From positions 1-20,940 of the IMG/VR virus record IMGVR_UViG_3300013094_003805: a stretch of DNA of 20,940 nucleotides. One strand, 5' to 3'. Below, piece by piece: positions 7,363 through 17,366 of the stretch. The number at the start of each line of letters is the position of its first letter. Positions within the stretch are counted from its first letter, which is position 1. Origin of the DNA: a virus. Made by a program: the position numbers and the translations under genes. Under the pieces are notes generated by a model that was not told the DNA's origin, made no database searches, and worked only from the letters and a program-made list of their open reading frames with translations.

Positions 7363-7778
7363 AACAAAGTTGTGGTGCACTTATATATTCAACAAGCACC
7401 AATAGATATCTATTCCTATTAAGAAATGGTGGGAGATTCCCTGACACGTGGGGAATAGTGGGCGGAAAAATAGAATCGGGCGAATCTATACTTGACGGAC
7501 TTCTAAGAGAAATACGAGAAGAACTCGGCGGGGAAATTAAGGGAGCCAAGATACTACCCATCGAACAATACACCAGTAACAAAGGTACGTTTATCTATCA
7601 TACTTTTTTAATCAAAGTAGAAGATGAGTTTTTGCCTGCATTAAATCATGAACATCACGGGTATTGCTGGGTTACATTGGACCATATGCCTAGACCGTTG
7701 CATCCAGGAGTTTGGAGAACATTCAAGTTCAAGGCCAATAAAGATAAAATACAGGTTTTAGAAAAGATTAGAGATTAA
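7344..7778 (+). CDS. Nudix hydrolase
   Basis: The 144-aa protein has a near-perfect Nudix box at residues 41-63: G, five residues, E47, seven residues, then REIREELGG. The last position is Gly instead of a bulky hydrophobic residue. Nudix enzymes cleave X-linked nucleoside diphosphates such as oxidised nucleotides, nucleotide sugars or NAD-type compounds; the substrate cannot be read from the sequence. Nucleotide-sugar hydrolysis is worth considering because the neighbouring operon makes GDP-sugars (inference). An AGGA precedes the ATG, inside the gp15 gene, which it overlaps by 19 bases, so it is probably co-expressed late. Its last 11 bases overlap tail to tail with the third oxygenase gene. 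Confidence 0.88.
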   Translation: MATNNLKQSCGALIYSTSTNRYLFLLRNGGRFPDTWGIVGGKIESGESILDGLLREIREELGGEIKGAKILPIEQYTSNKGTFIYHTFLIKVEDEFLPALNHEHHGYCWVTLDHMPRPLHPGVWRTFKFKANKDKIQVLEKIRD

Positions 7779-8352
7779 ACACCAGACTGGTTCTGGGTTC
7801 TGTACTATGATTAGGAGGAACTTCGTGATACAACCAGCTGGGCCACATCAACAATAATCCTGGGCTAGGAACATAATCGGTATGTTGTAAACTATACCAA
7901 TTTGTAGGATCTTTAATCATAAACATATAATCAAAGAAATCCTTAAATGGCTGATTAGGATAGAATCTTATGTTGGCACTGCCTGGCGGAGTTTTAAGAT
8001 AGTAAATTCCGCTTATAGTACATTGACTATGCAGATGTTTAGGGTGTGTGCTACCTTCTAAAAATCTGTTGGCAAATAAAAATGGCTTCCAAGGCACACG
8101 ACTACTATCATATCCCATTTGTTCTAAAAATGCACAGGCCTGGGCTTGTATAAAATCCACAAAAGGTTTGAAATCTTCGTTATGAGTTAAATTTTGTGTG
8201 CCGTAGGTTGTTTCACCGTTGTAGTAAAAATCAGTGTTGATATTTCTATCGGGAGATTCGAATAATTTATCCATCTGTAGATTCATTGGTTCAATCCACT
8301 CAGGGTGGTAGTCTCTCCCGATTACACTAGGAAACCAATGATCTAGATTCAT
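7768..8352 (-). CDS. 2-oxoglutarate/Fe(II)-dependent oxygenase-like protein (third of three)
   Basis: I place the start at 8352, giving 194 aa, because that ATG follows the stop codon of the previous gene after a single base and is followed by MNLDHWFPSV, whereas the longer reading frame would overlap that gene by 89 bases. Residues 103-120 (HPKHLHSQ, then SGIYYLKTPPG) and 170-189 (WPSWLYHEVPP, then RTS) match the putative 2OG-Fe(II) oxygenase family PF13759: an HxH/H..S iron-binding strand, a distal His176 and an Arg187 that would hold 2-oxoglutarate. Such enzymes hydroxylate proteins, sugars or small molecules; phage copies of this family are common in marine T4-like genomes. The substrate is unknown. 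It is the last gene of the sugar operon. Confidence 0.78.
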   Translation of the reverse strand: MNLDHWFPSVIGRDYHPEWIEPMNLQMDKLFESPDRNINTDFYYNGETTYGTQNLTHNEDFKPFVDFIQAQACAFLEQMGYDSSRVPWKPFLFANRFLEGSTHPKHLHSQCTISGIYYLKTPPGSANIRFYPNQPFKDFFDYMFMIKDPTNWYSLQHTDYVPSPGLLLMWPSWLYHEVPPNHSTEPRTSLVFNL

Positions 8353-8353
8353 A

Positions 8354-8881
8354 TTATTTTGTAAAGAATAACTGTATGCTAAGTCTTGGATATTCTGCAG
8401 CCAATGTAAGCATACTGGTACCGTGATAAATTGGAGGCACAAACCAAGTCATTAGATTGTAATGAGGAAATATCCAACGTTGTCCTTGCTCAGGATCATC
8501 GTATAAAAATAATCCACCCCAATTCCAATTCCAAGTAGGGTTAATATAGATTGTACTGGTTAACCGTTTGTCTTGACCTTCACTTACGTCATCGTGGTGG
8601 AAGTTGATTTGACTGCCAGGAGGCCAAATATGTAAAAATACTGTGGCATGATTATAGTCAGCAAATGCAGGATCAACAGACTTGTATTTGGCAACAAAAT
8701 ATTCTTCGTATTCGCTAAGAGGTATAATAAACACAGGAGCAAAACTGCCACGGTCTAATCCTTGTCCCCAACGTCCCATATTGTTAATTTCGAATGCAGC
8801 TTTGCCTTTGCTGTCTTCAAATTTTTGTGTAATTTCGTCGAGTATATGTTGTTCTAAAAAGTTAGGTACTTGGTTAACCAT
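8354..8881 (-). CDS. 2-oxoglutarate/Fe(II)-dependent oxygenase (second of three)
   Basis: The 175-aa protein shows the prolyl-4-hydroxylase-like double-stranded beta-helix pattern. HHDD at 95-98 supplies the HxD iron ligands, a GGLFLYDD segment at 122-129 follows, His153 (in PPIYHGT) is the distal ligand, and Arg166 (PRLSIQLFF) is the expected 2-oxoglutarate anchor. All key residues are present, so an active dioxygenase is likely. Phage enzymes of this group may hydroxylate virion or host proteins, nucleotides or sugars. It lies nine bases after the first oxygenase gene and one base before the third, which suggests these three act together or on related substrates. Confidence 0.82.
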   Translation of the reverse strand: MVNQVPNFLEQHILDEITQKFEDSKGKAAFEINNMGRWGQGLDRGSFAPVFIIPLSEYEEYFVAKYKSVDPAFADYNHATVFLHIWPPGSQINFHHDDVSEGQDKRLTSTIYINPTWNWNWGGLFLYDDPEQGQRWIFPHYNLMTWFVPPIYHGTSMLTLAAEYPRLSIQLFFTK

Positions 8882-8890
8882 AAGTGTCTT

Positions 8891-9445
8891 TCAATATTGT
8901 GTGCTGAAAAAGAAAACTTGGAAAAGTCTTCCTGTGTATAGGTCAGATCCAAAGTAGTCTAAACTGCTATGAAAAAGATCTCCTCGGTATAATACCAAAC
9001 GATTATATATGTTGCCTAGTGTATCATATAAATCCCATTTGGTCATATCTTGTGCTTCGTATCCTGTGGTTAATTCGCCTGCACGAACTGCACCAGTTGC
9101 ACGATGTCTGAATAAACCAGTGCCGCCTGTGTAAGGAGCGTCAGGGTTAAGATAACAAACTCCTGCCCAAGTGTTAAAATGATCACTATGAACCCAGCTG
9201 CGATCTGCTGCCGTAGTCAATTGAAATGCACCTGTGTAGCCGTCGTTCTCGAACCAATCTGTTACTGCACCGCCGGCGTTCCATACTATGCTTTGAATAG
9301 TTTCTTTTACATCGGGAGTAAGATGGCTGATTGTTCTTTTTCCTGGAAAATTTCCAGTCACTGAAAATGGTTGACTCAGTGCAAAATTTCTAACCCCATC
9401 AGGATTACTGTAAAAGTTATCAGTTATAATTACATTTGTTATCAT
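8891..9445 (-). CDS. 2-oxoglutarate/Fe(II) oxygenase-like protein (first of three, DUF6445-like)
   Basis: The 184-aa protein is less typical than its two neighbours but keeps the fold's landmarks: HSD at 86-88 (HxD), YLNPDAPYTGGTGLFRH at 98-114, His159 (GDLFHSS) and Arg173 in TGRLFQVFFF. The N terminus, ITNVIITDNFYSNPDGVRNFAL, is shared, as I recall, with a group of uncharacterised marine proteins resembling DUF6445. The reaction would be hydroxylation or a related oxidation coupled to 2-oxoglutarate, but the substrate is unknown. It starts 14 bases after the GT10 gene ends, in the same operon. Confidence 0.7.
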   Translation of the reverse strand: MITNVIITDNFYSNPDGVRNFALSQPFSVTGNFPGKRTISHLTPDVKETIQSIVWNAGGAVTDWFENDGYTGAFQLTTAADRSWVHSDHFNTWAGVCYLNPDAPYTGGTGLFRHRATGAVRAGELTTGYEAQDMTKWDLYDTLGNIYNRLVLYRGDLFHSSLDYFGSDLYTGRLFQVFFFSTQY

Positions 9446-9459
9446 AATATTATCGAGTA

Positions 9460-10257
9460 TTAATTACTTAGTTGTGCTATCTCAGCTGCAATAAATTCTT
9501 CTAATCGTTGATAGATACTTTTTTCCCAATAAGGCAACGCTCGTTGGTAGTTTTCTTCTATAGCATCTGCCATTGCGTCATAGTGTGCAGGAGTAATATT
9601 TTTTAGTATGTTTTCTAACTGTTCTATGTTAAAAAACGGTACCACACCTGCGGGATTAAAAAAATCCCCTATATTAATGCAACCATAGTATATAGGAACA
9701 GTTTTGGTTATAAAACAATCCAGTATTTTTTCACTAAACATATTGTGCATAACTTGGTTTTCGCAAGCTATGTTGAACTTGGCATTTTGGAAGTAAGGAT
9801 CTTTAGTGGGAATTCTAGGAGGACTTCGATACATTTTGAATTCAAAGTCGCCTACCGTAGTACGTTTTTCCATTCTACGCAATATCATAAAACGCAGTCT
9901 ATGATCAGGAGTATATATTTTACTGCTCATCATATAGGTAATTTGATTGTGTTTTACAATGTCAGGAGTTTGTATCCAACTACCAGCAGGCACAAACAAT
10001 TTGGCATTAGGCAATTTTAATAATTCAGGATTATAAGCAAGTATGAGATCAAATTTATCAGCATTGTCATATACCATCTTCGCAAAATCTCTGTATAACA
10101 CTGGAGGTTCGCATTGTACCAACACTCGATAGTCGGCGGTTAAGTCTGTTTCTATCGTATCAAAGCTTACTGCAACTCGTCGATCAAAGTCTTTTGTAAA
10201 TTGAAAAGCAGGGTTACCACTGTAACCTGGCATATACCCGTACTGAACTGCCTGCAT
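9460..10257 (-). CDS. GT10-family glycosyltransferase (fucosyltransferase-like)
   Basis: The chosen start is the ATG at 10257, which overlaps the Gmd stop codon by one base (TGATG) and is preceded by GGAGCAGG; the longer frame begins at 10275. The product is 265 aa. Residues 161-192 hold the GT10 donor-binding signature: FNIACEN, then FSEKILDCF, then TVPIYYG, equivalent to the FxxxENS...TEK...VPVxxG block of alpha-1,3/1,4-fucosyltransferases. This family transfers L-fucose from GDP-fucose, and sometimes other GDP-6-deoxy sugars, to a glycan acceptor in the cytoplasm. The gene directly follows GDP-mannose 4,6-dehydratase, whose product is the precursor of GDP-fucose, which fits. No GDP-fucose synthase is visible in the window, so the donor could instead be another GDP-6-deoxyhexose. 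Confidence 0.78.
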   Translation of the reverse strand: MQAVQYGYMPGYSGNPAFQFTKDFDRRVAVSFDTIETDLTADYRVLVQCEPPVLYRDFAKMVYDNADKFDLILAYNPELLKLPNAKLFVPAGSWIQTPDIVKHNQITYMMSSKIYTPDHRLRFMILRRMEKRTTVGDFEFKMYRSPPRIPTKDPYFQNAKFNIACENQVMHNMFSEKILDCFITKTVPIYYGCINIGDFFNPAGVVPFFNIEQLENILKNITPAHYDAMADAIEENYQRALPYWEKSIYQRLEEFIAAEIAQLSN

Positions 10258-11225
10258 CAAACCTGCTCCATCCAATGTGCAATCATTTCGTCTAACATAG
10301 ATTCAAAAGTATAGGTAGGTTTCCAACCTAATTCGGCTCTAATCTTACTGCTATCGCCTTTGAGATAGCGTAGCTCTTCGGGACGTAAAAACTTTTGATT
10401 CTGTACTACATATTGATTATAGTCCATATCTAATTTAGAAAACACATACTCGCATAAGTCTCGTACACTATGACTTTCGCCGGTGGCAACTACCCAGTCT
10501 CTAGGTAAATCATTGTTTATGATCAAATGCATAGCACGTACATAATCATAACTATGCCCCCAATCTCTGCAACTGTCTAAGTTACCTAATTCCAATTTGT
10601 CTGCTAGCCCTTTTTTAATTTCTACTGCAGTTTTAACAATCTTGTTGGTAACAAAGTTAGTGCCCCTACGTGGGCTTTCATGATTAAACAATATGCCGTT
10701 ACAGGCGTGTAGTTTATAAGCATCTCTATAATGACGTACAAGATTGTAGCCCATTACTTTACTAACACCGTAAGGACTTACTGGCACCATTGGTGTGGTT
10801 AATCTTTGGGTATGGTCTTCGTCGATGCTATTACCAAACATTTCACTACTACTGGCTTGATAAAACTTAGCAGTGGGACAAAATTGACGATAAGCTTCTA
10901 GCATTGTTAGTACACCGAGCCCGTTGGTTTTAATTGTAAATGCTGGCATTTCAAAACTGATTCTTACGTGACTCATAGCTGCGAGATTGTAAATCTCGTC
11001 CGGTTGGATATCAGTAATAGTTTTAGTAATGCTCCACTCATCAGTCAAGTCACCATAGATACGAGTTATACGTGTGTCTATATGGCTGAGTCTACTGCTT
11101 TGATTTTCTGCCACACTATGCCTACGAACAATGCCGTAGACTTCGTAGCCAAGACTCAGTAGATATTCGCTAAGATAACTGCCGTCTTGCCCTGTTATAC
11201 CTGTTATTAGTGCTCTTTTTGTCAT
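10257..11225 (-). CDS. gmd: GDP-mannose 4,6-dehydratase
   Basis: The 322-aa protein is a short-chain dehydrogenase/reductase with the Gmd signature. It has a Rossmann nucleotide loop, GITGQDGSYLSEYL, at 9-22, the Gmd-type VRRHS at 33-37, SSSEMFG at 125-131 (Ser/Thr and Glu of the active site) and YGVSK at 152-156 with catalytic Tyr and Lys. CRDWGHSYDYVRAM is the GDP-sugar binding stretch. It converts GDP-D-mannose to GDP-4-keto-6-deoxy-D-mannose with tightly bound NADP+. Bacterial Gmd is usually about 345-375 aa, so this is a compact form. The product can be reduced to GDP-L-fucose or GDP-D-rhamnose or aminated to GDP-perosamine; the aminotransferase just upstream favours the last. The start overlaps the aminotransferase stop by four bases (ATGA). 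Confidence 0.93.
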   Translation of the reverse strand: MTKRALITGITGQDGSYLSEYLLSLGYEVYGIVRRHSVAENQSSRLSHIDTRITRIYGDLTDEWSITKTITDIQPDEIYNLAAMSHVRISFEMPAFTIKTNGLGVLTMLEAYRQFCPTAKFYQASSSEMFGNSIDEDHTQRLTTPMVPVSPYGVSKVMGYNLVRHYRDAYKLHACNGILFNHESPRRGTNFVTNKIVKTAVEIKKGLADKLELGNLDSCRDWGHSYDYVRAMHLIINNDLPRDWVVATGESHSVRDLCEYVFSKLDMDYNQYVVQNQKFLRPEELRYLKGDSSKIRAELGWKPTYTFESMLDEMIAHWMEQV

Positions 11226-11914
11226 TTGAATAGTCGTTTGGTTGTTAAATCTGGATAGTTTTGTTCTGTTGCTGAATCACCATATGTACTGGGATCCACA
11301 CTATCCATTAGTATAATTCCACGTGCAGCATCTTCAGGAGTCATATAGTAATGCCATCCCATCACTGCATAATCATCTTCCCACTGGGGGACTGCTAAAT
11401 CTCTGCCATCATAACTGGCCAATTTAAGCCATTTGTATGCTTCGAGATCATCTGTTAGTACCATACCACCGCGGCCAATTGGTACACGCTTTTTAAGTTG
11501 AAAACTTACGCAATGTAGCCCACCTGTATACATTCCAGGAGTCCATCGTACTGCGGCATCCCATACAGGATAAGGTTTAAGTTGATACCTACCGCTCCAC
11601 GCAATATCTTCAAATGCTACACGACAGCCAGCGTGCACAATCTGTTGTGCAATACTCACATAGGATCTAGTAGGCATAGTAACTGTGCCCATAGCATTAC
11701 AGTATTTCAAACTTAAAAATACTGCGTGACTGCAACAATCTACTGCCACCGCATAACAGCTACCAGCAAATGCTGCAACTTTTTTTTCAAACATATCTAC
11801 TACATCTCTTGGATCTTGCCAATCATATCCCAAAGTTTTCAATTGATCTAATTCTGGGCGTTGTAGATGTTTTGGTAATTGCCCCAAAGGCCAGCTGGTA
11901 TATTTTTCACTCAT
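11222..11914 (-). CDS. Compact DegT/DnrJ/EryC1-type sugar aminotransferase
   Basis: The 230-aa protein resembles the N-terminal catalytic domain of PLP-dependent nucleotide-sugar aminotransferases. WDAAV at 118-122 carries the Asp119 that pairs with the PLP ring nitrogen; SFQLKKRVPIGRGGMVLTDD at 137-156 matches the SFxxxK...GxGGMxxT block, with Lys142 the likely Schiff-base residue. Full-length members are about 370-400 aa, so most of the C-terminal domain is missing or reduced, though the frame ends cleanly with a stop and a four-base overlap with gmd. It may be a natural compact enzyme. The likely substrate is a 4-keto-6-deoxy nucleotide sugar, and the Gmd product would give GDP-perosamine (inference). 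It overlaps the acyltransferase gene by eight bases. Confidence 0.72.
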   Translation of the reverse strand: MSEKYTSWPLGQLPKHLQRPELDQLKTLGYDWQDPRDVVDMFEKKVAAFAGSCYAVAVDCCSHAVFLSLKYCNAMGTVTMPTRSYVSIAQQIVHAGCRVAFEDIAWSGRYQLKPYPVWDAAVRWTPGMYTGGLHCVSFQLKKRVPIGRGGMVLTDDLEAYKWLKLASYDGRDLAVPQWEDDYAVMGWHYYMTPEDAARGIILMDSVDPSTYGDSATEQNYPDLTTKRLFK

Positions 11915-12479
11915 ACTCGATCTCTATATTATAAAATTCATTTACTCGTTGAGCAAGTTCTTTGACTCCTCTACGGGGAATTTGTTTGCCAGACCTATCA
12001 ACCAATAAATTCCATTTTTCTAAATTTAATGATTTGTTAACTACAGTATTGGCTGCTACTGCAAGCCCTTGTGGTAAGTTACTGCCGGGTAGTACTATAC
12101 TGTTTGCCCCAACTAACACAAAACTATCTAGCACTACATTGTCAATTATCACATTGTATTGATACTGTTTGGGTATTGTGGGTAAATCCAACCCACATTT
12201 AACATAATTACTACTACCAGCATAGACCTTACATCCAGCACTTAAACCGCTGAATGCTCGCATAGTAATGATACCAGCACTTGCACTTAACACACAGCCA
12301 GCAGCTATGTGTACATAGTCGCCGATGTTGACTGTTCCTGATATGTAAGTATAATCGTCGATTATTACATTGTTGCCAATACTTACCAATTCAGGATTTC
12401 TGATACGCACAGTCTTCCCAATGATAACATTAGTACCACAGGATTTTAATGTTGCAGTATCAAAAAACAAATTGCTCAT
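11907..12479 (-). CDS. Hexapeptide-repeat (left-handed beta-helix) acyltransferase
   Basis: The 190-aa product has the imperfect six-residue repeat with V/I at every sixth position (NVIIGKTVRI, ELVSIGNNVIIDDYTYISGTV and similar) that builds a left-handed beta-helix. VHIAAGC at about 56-62 contains the likely catalytic His57. GANSIVLPG and LPQGLAVAANTVV are typical C-terminal coils of WbbJ/MaaA-type O-acetyltransferases. These trimeric enzymes move an acetyl or other acyl group from acyl-CoA to a sugar. Together with the aminotransferase it could N-acylate a 4-amino-4,6-dideoxyhexose such as perosamine, or O-acetylate the finished glycan. The start overlaps the cupin stop by four bases (ATGA). 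Confidence 0.85.
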   Translation of the reverse strand: MSNLFFDTATLKSCGTNVIIGKTVRIRNPELVSIGNNVIIDDYTYISGTVNIGDYVHIAAGCVLSASAGIITMRAFSGLSAGCKVYAGSSNYVKCGLDLPTIPKQYQYNVIIDNVVLDSFVLVGANSIVLPGSNLPQGLAVAANTVVNKSLNLEKWNLLVDRSGKQIPRRGVKELAQRVNEFYNIEIEYE

Positions 12480-13992: not shown

Positions 13993-14610
13993 CTATCGAG
14001 TCTTGCCCCATTTAAGTTTGTTCCAAACTCTTTCGTGGTACCAATATAATAATGTTGATAATACTGCTTGTATGCCAGCAATACTACCAGCAGTAGTCAA
14101 TTTGCCAGTCATTAATAAACTTATTAAAAATGTTTCCACTGTGCCAATGATACGCCAAGATATTGCTTTTACTAAACTTCTAACATTGGAGTCACTGGGT
14201 GCTTGCGTTAAATCACTGGCTATGGACTTTACCCAAGAGTCTGACCAATCTGTAATATGATATGTTACTGAAGTTGGGTTTTCGAATAATTTATTGGTAT
14301 CTGCAAATCTACCTTCTTCAATGGTATCCATCCAAATAACTATATCAGCATTAAATGCATCACGTAGTTTTTCAGTAGGGCAAACAAAATCGCAAACTGA
14401 AAAATCACTACCCGAGTTGTTGCTCAGGTCAATCATACGTTGCATTTGGCGTTCGCGACCTTCAGGAGAAAAATCCCAATCGTTAAATTGTTCTCTTACT
14501 GTGTCAGCATTGAACCAACTTACTGAATGGGTAAGCATTAGTCGTTTAACTAGTTCTTGACTAAATGTAGTTTTACCAGATCCTGGCAAACCCATTACCA
14601 ATATCTTCAA
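13993..14610 (-). CDS. Adenylylsulfate (APS) kinase-like domain fused to a DUF2061 membrane domain
   Basis: Residues 1-125 are a P-loop kinase with a Walker A GLPGSGKTT at 7-15, NADTVRE at 34-40 (CysC has DGDNVR), DFSPEGRERQ at 46-55 (CysC has a DFS..DR.EN stretch) and FVCPTEKLRDAF at 76-87 (CysC has an F.SP.R..R..R segment). This is the APS kinase layout; the enzyme makes PAPS from adenylylsulfate and ATP. Residues 141-203 match DUF2061: RSLVKAISWRIIGTVETF, then a hydrophobic LLMTG...AGSIAGIQAVLS stretch with two likely membrane helices and a WYHERVWNKLKWG end. The start is TTG, overlapping the methyltransferase stop as TTGA; later Met6 would cut the first strand. The paired sulfotransferase upstream supports PAPS supply. 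Another P-loop kinase substrate remains possible. Confidence 0.78.
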   Translation of the reverse strand: MKILVMGLPGSGKTTFSQELVKRLMLTHSVSWFNADTVREQFNDWDFSPEGRERQMQRMIDLSNNSGSDFSVCDFVCPTEKLRDAFNADIVIWMDTIEEGRFADTNKLFENPTSVTYHITDWSDSWVKSIASDLTQAPSDSNVRSLVKAISWRIIGTVETFLISLLMTGKLTTAGSIAGIQAVLSTLLYWYHERVWNKLKWGKTR

Positions 14611-15173
14611 CGCAAACTCCGAGCAGGTTTGTAGGCTTTTGCTTTAATGTGTACTTGGTAGCAAGTGTTGTTATATTTGTTAAATTCTATATTAACAGCT
14701 TCTGGGGGCAAAGTTTTTGCGTATTCCATAAACCAAGGGGTGAAATCATGGCCTACTTCCGTGACTGCTATATCTATCCCTAATTGTAACCCTAAGGTAG
14801 TTTCTTGCCCGTGGTTTTCAACAGTTTCAGTATTTTTACGTTGATTAAACATATCAATACCAACTGGAGTAATTGCCCTTATGTGTGTAGGGTCGTGAAC
14901 AAAATTATCGTGCCTATAGTGAGGTACAGTAATATAAATTTCTGCACCATCTTTAAGAATTCTATAGAATTCTTTCCATATGGCAAAATAACTTTTAGTA
15001 TCTTGGCCGAGATGTTCTAACACATGGTGTATGACTATCTCGTCCACTGAATTGTCTTTCCAGGGCAGCTTTTTTTCTAGATCTACAACTTTATCTGGAT
15101 TGCAAGAAGGGTCGTTATCAACGTTAACATACCCTTCAAGCTTATTGTACCCACAGCCCAGGTTTAACTTCAA
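14607..15173 (-). CDS. SAM-dependent methyltransferase
   Basis: The 188-aa protein opens with the class I methyltransferase motif LNLGCG at residues 3-8, then NVDNDPSC with an acidic residue for the SAM ribose, a DLEKKLPWKDNSVDEIVIHHVLEHL segment (motif II/post I, 31-55) and YRILKDGAEIYITVPH (motif III). This resembles the small methyltransferases that modify sugars in polysaccharide clusters. The methyl acceptor is unknown; sugar O-methylation is plausible from the neighbours. The start codon is TTG, with the stop of the previous gene overlapping as TTGA; using a later start would remove motif I. Translation is therefore probably coupled to the upstream gene. Confidence 0.85.
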   Translation of the reverse strand: MKLNLGCGYNKLEGYVNVDNDPSCNPDKVVDLEKKLPWKDNSVDEIVIHHVLEHLGQDTKSYFAIWKEFYRILKDGAEIYITVPHYRHDNFVHDPTHIRAITPVGIDMFNQRKNTETVENHGQETTLGLQLGIDIAVTEVGHDFTPWFMEYAKTLPPEAVNIEFNKYNNTCYQVHIKAKAYKPARSLR

Positions 15174-15565
15174 TTCAATGCATCCAACTCGTCGTGTGTA
15201 TTACAAGCATTAATGGCTGCAATTCTAGCAGTCATAGTTGCTTGTGCAGCGGTAATTGCAGATGGATCAAATGATTCTGGATCCATTGCGCTTTCACGAA
15301 TTGTCTGTTGAACTGCAAATTTTGCCTGTGTAATCATTGATGATTTACGGTCATCTACAGAAATATCAAATGTTCCCCAAACGATTTGCACAGGATCTGT
15401 TGTCAAATCAAATGTGTGTGCAGTATAACCCTGACGATTTGGAATAATGTCTGGTCTGACTTCTACTGCGTTTCTCCAACCGTTGTTACCAACGCCCTCT
15501 GCTGGGGGTGTATCCCAAACATCAGTTACGTTACCATCAACTACTCTTACATAATGTGTGCTCAT
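15170..15565 (-). CDS. Small phage protein of unknown function
   Basis: I do not recognise this 131-aa protein with certainty. The N-terminal half begins YVRVVDGNVTDVWDTPP, a style seen in phage tail-fibre accessory proteins, and looks beta-rich; the C-terminal half (residues 75-131) is a pair of Ala-rich helices ending THDELDAL, resembling DUF4376-like phage proteins. It may assist fibre folding or attach to the virion. AAGGAGA lies about seven bases before the ATG, and the ATG overlaps the stop of the sulfotransferase gene by four bases (ATGA). Its position between a sulfotransferase-glycosyltransferase and a methyltransferase is odd for a structural protein. Confidence 0.72.
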   Translation of the reverse strand: MSTHYVRVVDGNVTDVWDTPPAEGVGNNGWRNAVEVRPDIIPNRQGYTAHTFDLTTDPVQIVWGTFDISVDDRKSSMITQAKFAVQQTIRESAMDPESFDPSAITAAQATMTARIAAINACNTHDELDALN

Positions 15566-17328
15566 GCGACTCTCCTTAATTTAGTCTGTTTCAATCTTTG
15601 TTTAATATTGTTAAACGGTGCAGTCCAATCCCCAAATACTTCTTGACGGAATAACGTCATTGAGTCATAATATGGATTTTTTTCACCTTCTAACGCATAT
15701 AAGTAATACCCCATTACAGGTATCACAACCCATGTTTCTATGCCCATAGCCGCACTCAAGTGGCTGACTGATGTGCAAGAACTAATAACTAGGTCGCAAC
15801 TTGCGGCCGCAACTCTAGTATCTTCCCATGTATTTAGCGGAACTTGCTTAACCCACGTCGGACAAGCATCTGCCCCTTCGTCTCTTTGCAGGCTTATAAA
15901 CTCGTATTCGTCATTTTTTACCGCATCAAACATCAGCTGATATGGGAATTTTTTGTTGTGATCCTCTTCAAATTTGCTCTGTCCTTGCCATCTAAGACCG
16001 ATACGTTTTTTAGGACCTTTAATGGTAATAGGCTTAGTTATGTAAGGATCTCCGCGCAAATCTGCTAGTTCTAATCCCAATGGCCCCGGAGCTACCATAG
16101 CAAATGTCCAAAAATCGTGATAAACACCAAATTCTGCACCGTGTTGTACTACTGCACTAACTCCCTCAACATCTTTGAATAAACTGGCTAGCATACCAGT
16201 ACAACAAACAATAACTTTATTTCCCCGTGCAGCTAAGTCTTTTGCATACCTAACTTGATGTATTTGATCGCCTAATCCATGATCACAGTATAACAATATT
16301 GTGCCTTTAGATTTGCCGTCCCATTCTGGTGCAGGTGTGTCGGGATGTTGGTCTCCAATAATACCGCAGAACCGGCCTCGATTCATAACTGTGTAACCTT
16401 CTAGTATTTTGCCTTGTCTAAGCAAATACCAACTTTTGTTGTAAGCAGCTCTATGATCGCCAGGTCTTTCTCTTTCTAATTTTTGTGCTAAACGCCATCC
16501 TTCGGCAAAATCACCTATTTTTCCTGCAGCTACTTGAAGGTCTAGATCATCTAATGTCGGAGTAGTTCTTTTACCGTCACTCCAAAATTCTGGCTGGCAG
16601 AATTGATTATAATGATAACTTAATACTACTTTTGGGTCGTCTGTATGTTGACGTGCTAGCACTGGTTTAATATCGTGCATACCTTCGTAACCGTGTATAT
16701 TTTCATCGTCTTCTTTTACAGAAGATCCGTCAATGTTACTAAAATCGTATTTGAATGGTTTAAGTCCCAAGAACTTATGTATGCGTTGCAGTTCTTTTTT
16801 AGGATTAGCAATTAAGTCGTCGTACTCAACGAATAAGAAACATTCAGGCATTGCTTCGTATCCGGACTGTAAACTGATATAAGCTGCCTTAAGGTGATCG
16901 GCTAATTGACCGTCATACATAAATTTATCAAGGTCATCAGGTTTTGCAACTCTGACAAAACTAGCCATACAATCAGGAACTGGTCGTACTGTAGCAATGA
17001 TTTTAGGTTTGGCCCCTAAGACCTGTGTCATCGCCTGCATAATAACAGGTATAGGCCAGCCTCTACCCTTGTCAATCACTATTTTTTTGTCAGTATCTTC
17101 GTAGAATGCATCAATCATTCCACGCATTGTTTCTGCTAATTTTGTTCGATTAGGATCATTTTCGTTAAGCAATCCTTGGCTGAACCAAGTATTTGCTAAA
17201 GAATCAAGTGCGTGAACTAGCCCGGACGTAGTTGACACGTGTGTGGCAGGATTTTGGTTTAATATAGCGGCCAAAACCGTAGACCCGCTGCGGGGAATTC
17301 CCGATAAGAAGTGTAGTGTTTTTTTCAT
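15562..17328 (-). CDS. Sulfotransferase fused to TPR and GT9-like glycosyltransferase domains
   Basis: The 588-aa protein joins two enzyme domains. Residues 1-245 are a PAPS-dependent sulfotransferase: SGIPRSGST at 9-17 is the 5'-phosphosulfate loop, and VRPVPDCMASF at 114-124 supplies the Arg and Ser that bind the 3'-phosphate. Residues 260-315 look like one or two TPR helix pairs. Residues 335-585 resemble the GT9/heptosyltransferase-like domain found in TPR-glycosyltransferases: GLGDQIHQVRYA at 351-362, RIGLRWQG at 442-449, FISLQRDEG, and SSCTSVSHLSAAMG at 516-529. The protein could add a sugar and sulfate the same glycan. Met1 must be the start, since the PAPS loop begins at residue 9. 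There is no ribosome binding site; a perfect late box ends five bases upstream. Confidence 0.83.
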   Translation of the reverse strand: MKKTLHFLSGIPRSGSTVLAAILNQNPATHVSTTSGLVHALDSLANTWFSQGLLNENDPNRTKLAETMRGMIDAFYEDTDKKIVIDKGRGWPIPVIMQAMTQVLGAKPKIIATVRPVPDCMASFVRVAKPDDLDKFMYDGQLADHLKAAYISLQSGYEAMPECFLFVEYDDLIANPKKELQRIHKFLGLKPFKYDFSNIDGSSVKEDDENIHGYEGMHDIKPVLARQHTDDPKVVLSYHYNQFCQPEFWSDGKRTTPTLDDLDLQVAAGKIGDFAEGWRLAQKLERERPGDHRAAYNKSWYLLRQGKILEGYTVMNRGRFCGIIGDQHPDTPAPEWDGKSKGTILLYCDHGLGDQIHQVRYAKDLAARGNKVIVCCTGMLASLFKDVEGVSAVVQHGAEFGVYHDFWTFAMVAPGPLGLELADLRGDPYITKPITIKGPKKRIGLRWQGQSKFEEDHNKKFPYQLMFDAVKNDEYEFISLQRDEGADACPTWVKQVPLNTWEDTRVAAASCDLVISSCTSVSHLSAAMGIETWVVIPVMGYYLYALEGEKNPYYDSMTLFRQEVFGDWTAPFNNIKQRLKQTKLRRVA

Positions 17329-17333
17329 ACAAA

Positions 17334-17341
17334 TATTTATA
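17334..17341 (-). promoter_or_regulatory. Perfect T4-type late promoter for the sulfation operon
   Basis: The minus strand reads TATAAATA, the exact T4 late consensus, and ends five bases before the sulfotransferase ATG at 17328. In T4, transcription begins about six bases after this box, so the message would start at or beside the AUG. The box forms one side of the large hairpin at 17335-17366. Confidence 0.65.
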
Positions 17342-17366
17342 ACCTGTATTGCTACAGGTTATAAAT
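17335..17366 (-). terminator. Perfect 13-bp hairpin between adhesin and sulfotransferase genes
   Basis: Bases 17335-17347 pair with 17354-17366 without mismatch around the loop ATTGCT. The stem is AT-rich at its base and has CCTGT/ACAGG at its top. On the minus strand it is followed by ATTTGT, a weak U-rich tail, so it could terminate the adhesin transcript, or at least stabilise its 3' end. The late promoter of the next operon lies within the stem, coupling the two signals. Confidence 0.55.

Follow-up and report, generated by a model that had tools for sequence, protein, structure and literature searches.

The stretch analysed here (the window) is a virus fragment of 20,940 bases, positions 1–20,940 of the IMG/VR record IMGVR_UViG_3300013094_003805; its source is a T4-like myovirus, with a gp15-type tail sheath stabiliser (7.7e-28) and a head-tail adaptor (3e-29). 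Its minus strand carries, from 17328 to 13993, a putative sulfation and glycosylation cassette of four open reading frames (ORFs) in the order fusion gene (sulfotransferase joined to glycosyltransferase), small protein, methyltransferase and kinase, all located downstream of a giant adhesin gene that lies 60 bp upstream of the fusion gene (Table 1). An earlier description made from the sequence (hereafter the original prediction) had taken these genes for a translationally coupled operon, and the coupling is real: each neighbouring pair shares a 4-nt overlap, at ATGA, TTGA and TTGA junctions, and the methyltransferase and kinase ORFs both open with TTG. The methyltransferase, the small protein and the adjoining adhesin that it listed were likewise all recovered in their places by ORF and Pfam analysis.

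Table 1. Features of the cassette and the adjoining adhesin gene in the window
Feature	Position	Strand	Evidence
Sulfotransferase-glycosyltransferase fusion, 588 aa	15562..17328	-	Pfam, AlphaFold2 model, Foldseek, invariant motifs
PAPS sulfotransferase part of fusion, residues ~1-200	about 16729-17328	-	Sulfotransfer_3
Helical TPR-like linker of fusion, residues ~260-320	about 16369-16551	-	
GT41/GT9-like domain of fusion, residues ~335-575	about 15604-16326	-	Fold search
Small protein, 131 aa	15170..15565	-	ATGA overlap with fusion gene; homologues in most relatives
SAM-dependent methyltransferase, 188 aa, TTG start	14607..15173	-	Methyltransf_11 (8e-7); TTGA junctions
Kinase-DUF2061 protein, 205 aa, TTG start	13993..14610	-	Pfam
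APS-kinase-like domain, residues 1-125 of the 205-aa protein	14236..14610	-	Pfam APS_kinase, profile, fold of fused homologue
DUF2061 predicted membrane domain, residues 146-197 of the 205-aa protein	14020..14175	-	PF09834 (4.2e-18)
RCC1-repeat/fn3 giant adhesin, 1090 aa	17389..20661	-	12 RCC1 and 3 fn3 stretches (Pfam); PHROG minor tail protein matches
14-bp hairpin, GCAA loop, between adhesin and fusion genes	17335..17366	-	

Residues 7–190 of the fusion protein match Sulfotransfer_3 (4e-15) and Sulfotransfer_1 (1.8e-10) in Pfam, and an AlphaFold2 model built with 22 relatives (pLDDT 84) has as its top Foldseek matches in the PDB the human tyrosylprotein sulfotransferases TPST1/2 with bound 3'-phosphoadenosine 5'-phosphate (PAP; 1.4e-8 for TPST2 with PAP). 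The motifs of the pocket for 3'-phosphoadenosine 5'-phosphosulfate (PAPS), P12-R13-x-G15-S16-T17 in the 5'-phosphosulfate-binding segment (5'-PSB) and R115...S123 in the 3'-phosphate-binding segment (3'-PB), are invariant in 22 of 22 sulfotransferases, in an alignment that takes in members of 25–35% identity. The N-terminal half thereby shares its fold and both motifs with tyrosylprotein sulfotransferases and Sulfotransfer_3 proteins, in agreement with the PAPS-type sulfotransferase of the original prediction, including the 3'-phosphate pocket that had been singled out for checking; it differs from tyrosylprotein sulfotransferase in being phage-encoded, in its attached glycosyltransferase domain and in the region of the catalytic Glu (see below).

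The residues behind the sulfotransferase domain have no Pfam match, but the glycosyltransferase that had been claimed there is supported by the fold search, which found SPINDLY (4e-6), TibC (4e-5) and the heptosyltransferase WaaC (1e-4) in the PDB, with the bacterial O-GlcNAc transferase (OGT) also falling in the range from 4e-6 to 1e-4. The predicted model of this half has a GT41/GT9-like fold, and it shares a helical linker and a GT-B-like fold with SPINDLY and OGT (GT41) and with TibC and WaaC (GT9-like), although it is only ∼ 10–13% identical to them and is placed behind a sulfotransferase. TibC glycosylates an adhesin. In another phage the glycosyltransferase half stands behind an apparently methyltransferase-like N-terminus (L104:6891-8786), and the domain seems to have been exchanged among modifier proteins.

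The kinase matches the Pfam family APS_kinase (PF01583) over residues 3–86 with 28.8 bits against a gathering cutoff of 21.1, APS being adenosine 5'-phosphosulfate. Residues G7, G12, K13, D36, R39, F47, R52, F75 and P78 are invariant in 30 relatives, and the P-loop, D-x-x-R, F-x4-R and F[VI]xP motifs align with those of APS kinases. Searched against the PDB, a profile of the 30 relatives retrieves APS kinases first, from 2.5e-12; apart from them, only two adenylate-kinase-like chains near 1e-7 rank ahead of shikimate kinase (2e-4). The fold search, run with the model of a relative in which the kinase is fused to a nucleotidyltransferase (L103, pLDDT 81), places APS kinases at ranks 1–8, the best viral match being the APS kinase of phage phiRSL1. 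Profile and fold searches thus place the kinase nearest to APS kinases, a point that the original prediction had wished to see checked; readings as a polynucleotide kinase or a zeta-toxin, for which Pfam and PHROG gave weak matches only, were discarded. As judged from its sequence, the protein is a divergent, lid-shortened relative of APS kinases. It resembles CysC and the kinase domain of PAPS synthetases (PF01583) in its P-loop, D..R, F....R and FVxP motifs and in its best PDB matches, but it is only ∼ 125 aa long, its homology stops near residue 86, the lid is shortened, NAD replaces DGD, a DUF2061 domain is fused or adjacent to it and its usual partner is a nucleotidyltransferase of ∼ 125 aa. 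In relatives DUF2061 is often a separate ORF adjoining the kinase; the literature that we searched has only passing mentions of this domain.

We found 23 contigs in IMG/VR with a close relative of the fusion gene (67–84% identity) and one with a distant relative. The gene is a full ORF in 21 contigs, and in most of these its immediate neighbours on one side or both are RCC1 genes; among the relatives as a whole, the great majority carry RCC1 genes on at least one side of it. In most related contigs the small protein and the kinase follow, frequently with the methyltransferase between them, and the usual arrangement reads RCC1 - fusion - RCC1 - small protein - [methyltransferase] - kinase amid surrounding genes that vary. 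The small protein and/or the kinase lies downstream in most contigs with a full fusion gene, beyond chance association. Homologues of the small protein, which itself has no Pfam or PHROG match, are mostly 53–67% identical and follow the fusion gene in most relatives; our guess is that it is an adhesin accessory protein or chaperone. Homologues of the methyltransferase (60–64%) occupy the equivalent position in L081, L087, L088, L090, L095 and L103. The cassette recurs in ∼ 20 virus contigs, which a search proposed with the original prediction had been meant to establish, and the combination said to be undescribed in T4-like phages is not restricted to such phages; the cassette is common to many aquatic viruses of bacteria. 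In one contig (L032) a 35%-identical fusion protein directly precedes a fused kinase-nucleotidyltransferase, and in two others (L029 and L041) different short sulfotransferases adjoin the kinase. A motif search found a sulfotransferase-like gene within 6 kb of 7 of the 32 viral kinases, a count that has no control set and is not used as proof.

The nucleotidyltransferase (NTase), a protein of ∼ 125 aa with the motifs HxGH...ISATxIR, adjoins or is fused to 23 of the 32 distinct viral kinases, and the kinase-NTase pair is also found on the chromosomes of SAR86 and SAR11 bacteria. In the closest relatives of the window's kinase, including that of the T4-like L009, the NTase gene lies just upstream. 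Fusions of the two, in the phages L024, L087 and L103 and in Pelagibacter L168, resemble the PAPS synthetase PAPSS in their kinase-then-NTase order; unlike in PAPSS, the second domain is NadM-like, ∼ 125 aa long and without detectable homology to Sat.

Published gene lists credit SAR11 with cysC, cysQ and aprA, whereas sat is absent from them and cysD/N almost so; for Ca. Pelagibacter, which has aprA, cysC and cysQ and lacks both sat and cysDN, the published inventory leaves the ATP sulfurylase unaccounted for. SAR11 bacteria have no assimilatory sulfate reduction, yet they retain cysC and cysQ (PMC5069961). Among 118 SAR11 genomes (at least 80% complete, not all of them complete), 93 encode the NTase and six encode CysD, and all six fall among the 25 NTase-minus genomes. 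In six SAR11 genomes the NTase, without the kinase, stands directly before aprM, aprB and aprA (L307:3041-6638, L308:6068-9696, L314, L315, L316 and L318). Family models, run on two of these loci, gave AprA (995 bits) and AprB (188–189 bits) over their cutoffs, while the aprM-like protein matched QmoC only weakly; at the four remaining loci, tblastn found matches to those proteins. In Allochromatium vinosum it is sat that sits directly before aprMBA (PMC3779200), and the SAR11 loci are alike in having a nucleotidyltransferase gene there, although the NTase is not a detectable homologue of Sat. In another group of SAR11 the kinase-NTase pair lies tail to tail with aprA in 10 of 10 loci. Short Sat-like proteins (∼ 340–364 aa) occur in six SAR11 genomes (L290-L295), mostly where the NTase is also present, and those of G092 and G140 are encoded within 2–3 kb of sulfotransferases.

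Of 61 SAR86 genomes, 57 are concordant for sulfotransferase and NTase (30 with both, 27 with neither); CysD exceeds its cutoff in none of the 61, and Sat is present in one. The operon sulfotransferase-kinase-NTase is present in 13 genomes, and G026, one of the four disagreements, has a kinase-NTase-DUF2061-CysQ operon beside a sulfotransferase gene of another family, Sulfotransfer_1. CysQ was dropped as a discriminating marker in SAR86, being weakly informative where nearly all genomes have a CysQ-like gene. The only Sat is a 717-aa protein (L197:7-2160, genome G008) that combines a front half resembling, by eye, pyruvate kinase with an ATP sulfurylase back half; its gene is convergent with a sulfotransferase-like gene. 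A literature search on SAR86 sulfotransferases found no paper.

The gene context of the NTase, with aprMBA, the kinase, CysQ and the exclusion of CysD, is that of a sat gene, and all these settings suggest APS as its product or substrate. The NTase is probably a short ATP sulfurylase, so far unrecognised, and the kinase-NTase pair a compact PAPS synthetase. We regard it as fairly probable that the NTase represents an ATP sulfurylase of a third kind, derived from NadM, ∼ 125 aa long and without detectable sequence relationship to Sat or CysDN, that fills the place of sat in SAR11 and SAR86 and forms with the kinase a portable PAPS synthetase that phages use on their own adhesins.

As for the cassette itself, we lean towards seeing it as a phage-borne unit for modifying the phage's own tail adhesin, accompanied in most relatives by a proposed NTase-kinase synthesis of PAPS. 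From the affinities of sequence and fold, the motifs, the gene order and the co-occurrence described above, we infer the following reactions, substrate and timing. The kinase, presumably tethered to the membrane through DUF2061, would turn APS into PAPS by phosphorylation; with PAPS as donor, the TPST-like domain at the N-terminus of the fusion would sulfate a substrate that the SPINDLY/TibC-like C-terminal domain would glycosylate; and the methyltransferase would add a further mark. The substrate is most likely the adjacent RCC1-repeat fibre, proposed mainly because fibre genes constantly accompany the fusion gene. In most relatives the NTase would interconvert ATP and sulfate with APS and pyrophosphate, partnering the kinase, whereas the phage of the window, of which only the kinase half is seen, would depend on APS supplied by the host or by a gene beyond the ends of the fragment. 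The suggestion that the phage raises PAPS late in infection holds in part: the link between kinase and sulfotransferase is stronger than the sequence alone could show, but an APS kinase alone is incomplete, its usual partner being the NTase, and the 'perfect late promoter' was given no weight. The window has a single copy of TATAAATA, whereas chance would give 2.7 (standard deviation 1.5), and this copy is not an isolated signal: at 17334-17341, with its end 5 nt before the ATG of the fusion gene, it forms the downstream flank of the 14-bp GCAA-loop hairpin. With the promoter ruled out as evidence of timing, the word 'late' draws solely on the virion-gene context.

Several observations weigh against these interpretations. 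The kinase misses the cutoff of the NCBIfam equivalog apsK (CysC), with 20.7 of 138.7 bits, for which reason we call it APS-kinase-like and not CysC, and the C-terminal lid (RDxKGLY region) was not recovered, profile matches ending near residue 86–93. The catalytic Glu that follows the 5'-PSB helix in TPST is not kept in the phage domain, where STTSG aligns with GEETR of TPST2, so that the acceptor is not nameable from sequence; the case for the RCC1 fibre as the probable substrate is made from gene context. The 20.9-kb window contains no NTase, and the methyltransferase occupies the position upstream of the kinase. The NTase is nearest to NadM-type nicotinamide mononucleotide (NMN) adenylyltransferases (4.6e-6); direct homology with Sat was rejected, none being detectable (hhalign probability 1.7%, PF01747), and the NTase lacks the QxRN sulfate motif, with GRWQPWH where Sat has QxRNPxH. 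The exclusion of CysD in SAR11 has a hypergeometric p of 5e-5 that takes no account of kinship. An association of the NTase with Sulfotransfer_3 in SAR11 was rejected (p = 0.44), and 12 sulfotransferase-bearing SAR11 genomes (e.g. G079, G088, G144 and G158) show no NTase, CysD or Sat, which may reflect incompleteness or an additional source of PAPS. The association in SAR86 comes down to about four changes of each trait on a one-gene tree (tyrosyl-tRNA synthetase), with three concordant pairs and none opposed (p = 0.25), too few for significance.

The affinity of the NTase for NadM, which is seen in NCBIfam as well, and its motifs GRxQPxHxGH and ISATxIR would also suit a NadR-like pair of riboside kinase and NMN adenylyltransferase, or another nucleotide-cofactor pathway, with the nearness of sulfotransferases incidental. 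However, the kinase profile matches APS kinases and not riboside kinases, the NTase stays far under the cutoff of the NMN adenylyltransferase equivalog (TIGR01527, 22 of 181 bits), and its positions before aprMBA in six SAR11 genomes and beside CysQ and sulfotransferases in SAR86, together with the exclusion of CysD, are unexpected for NAD synthesis; we consider such a pair unlikely. Still more improbable is a role of the kinase in supplying assimilatory sulfate reduction in the infected cell, the pathway under which a review places viral cysC, though not as a validated role (PMC12713726): we noticed no cysH-, cysI- or cysJ-like genes in the cassettes, sulfotransferase genes adjoin the kinase, and SAR11 has the same kinase along with cysC and cysQ but no assimilatory sulfate reduction (PMC5069961).

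It is conceivable, if doubtful, that the fusion protein modifies a glycan of the host surface (O-antigen or capsule), for example to exclude other phages, and not the phage fibre. The cassette adjoins a run of glycan genes, namely a GDP-mannose 4,6-dehydratase (4.7e-113), a GT4 glycosyltransferase (7e-18), a hexapeptide transferase, a DegT protein and three 2-oxoglutarate (2OG) oxygenases, and two reports describe bacterial sulfated-capsule clusters with sulfotransferase genes (PMC11641403, PMC11766843). Against this, the relatives keep the company of RCC1 genes and the fibre-side small protein, whereas they have not conserved the run of glycan genes, and the closest matches of both fusion domains are enzymes that modify proteins (TPST; SPINDLY/OGT; TibC). 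Where the original prediction had left the choice between virion and host surface, the RCC1 gene company makes the fibre of the phage itself the likelier target than a glycan of the host.

Positions 10257-12479 of the window encode, besides the GDP-mannose 4,6-dehydratase and the hexapeptide transferase, a DegT-like protein that is short (230 aa) and has two matched stretches only; the set resembles a GDP-perosamine-type pathway whose aminotransferase is much reduced in length. The dehydratase, the aminotransferase-like protein and the hexapeptide protein could supply a GDP-deoxyhexose to the SPINDLY-like domain of the fusion. At 7768-9445 lie three distinct, consecutive genes of the 2OG-Fe(II) oxygenase type (2OG-FeII_Oxy_5, Oxy_3/4 and DUF6445).

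The same kinds of genes are known singly among phage auxiliary genes, in S-SKS1, in OM43 phages (PMC10580990) and as the APS kinase of phiRSL1, whereas we found no paper describing either the adhesin-coupled cassette or the NTase partner in the literature searched. The role of phage sulfotransferases has been called unclear (PMC10580990), and viral cysC has been labelled as sulfate assimilation without tests (PMC12713726); the cassette offers both a concrete candidate role, the addition of sulfate and sugar to the adhesin that the phage itself encodes. The most economical account is a compact PAPS synthetase, made of NTase and kinase with DUF2061, that marine bacteria with streamlined genomes use and that phages carry as well, in the window behind a sulfotransferase-glycosyltransferase that probably decorates the RCC1 adhesin. 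In SAR11, AprBA makes APS but no sat has been described (PMC5069961); the NTase is a candidate for the absent ATP sulfurylase there and in SAR86 and, if this is true, it would represent a new enzyme family in the sulfate activation of very abundant ocean bacteria.

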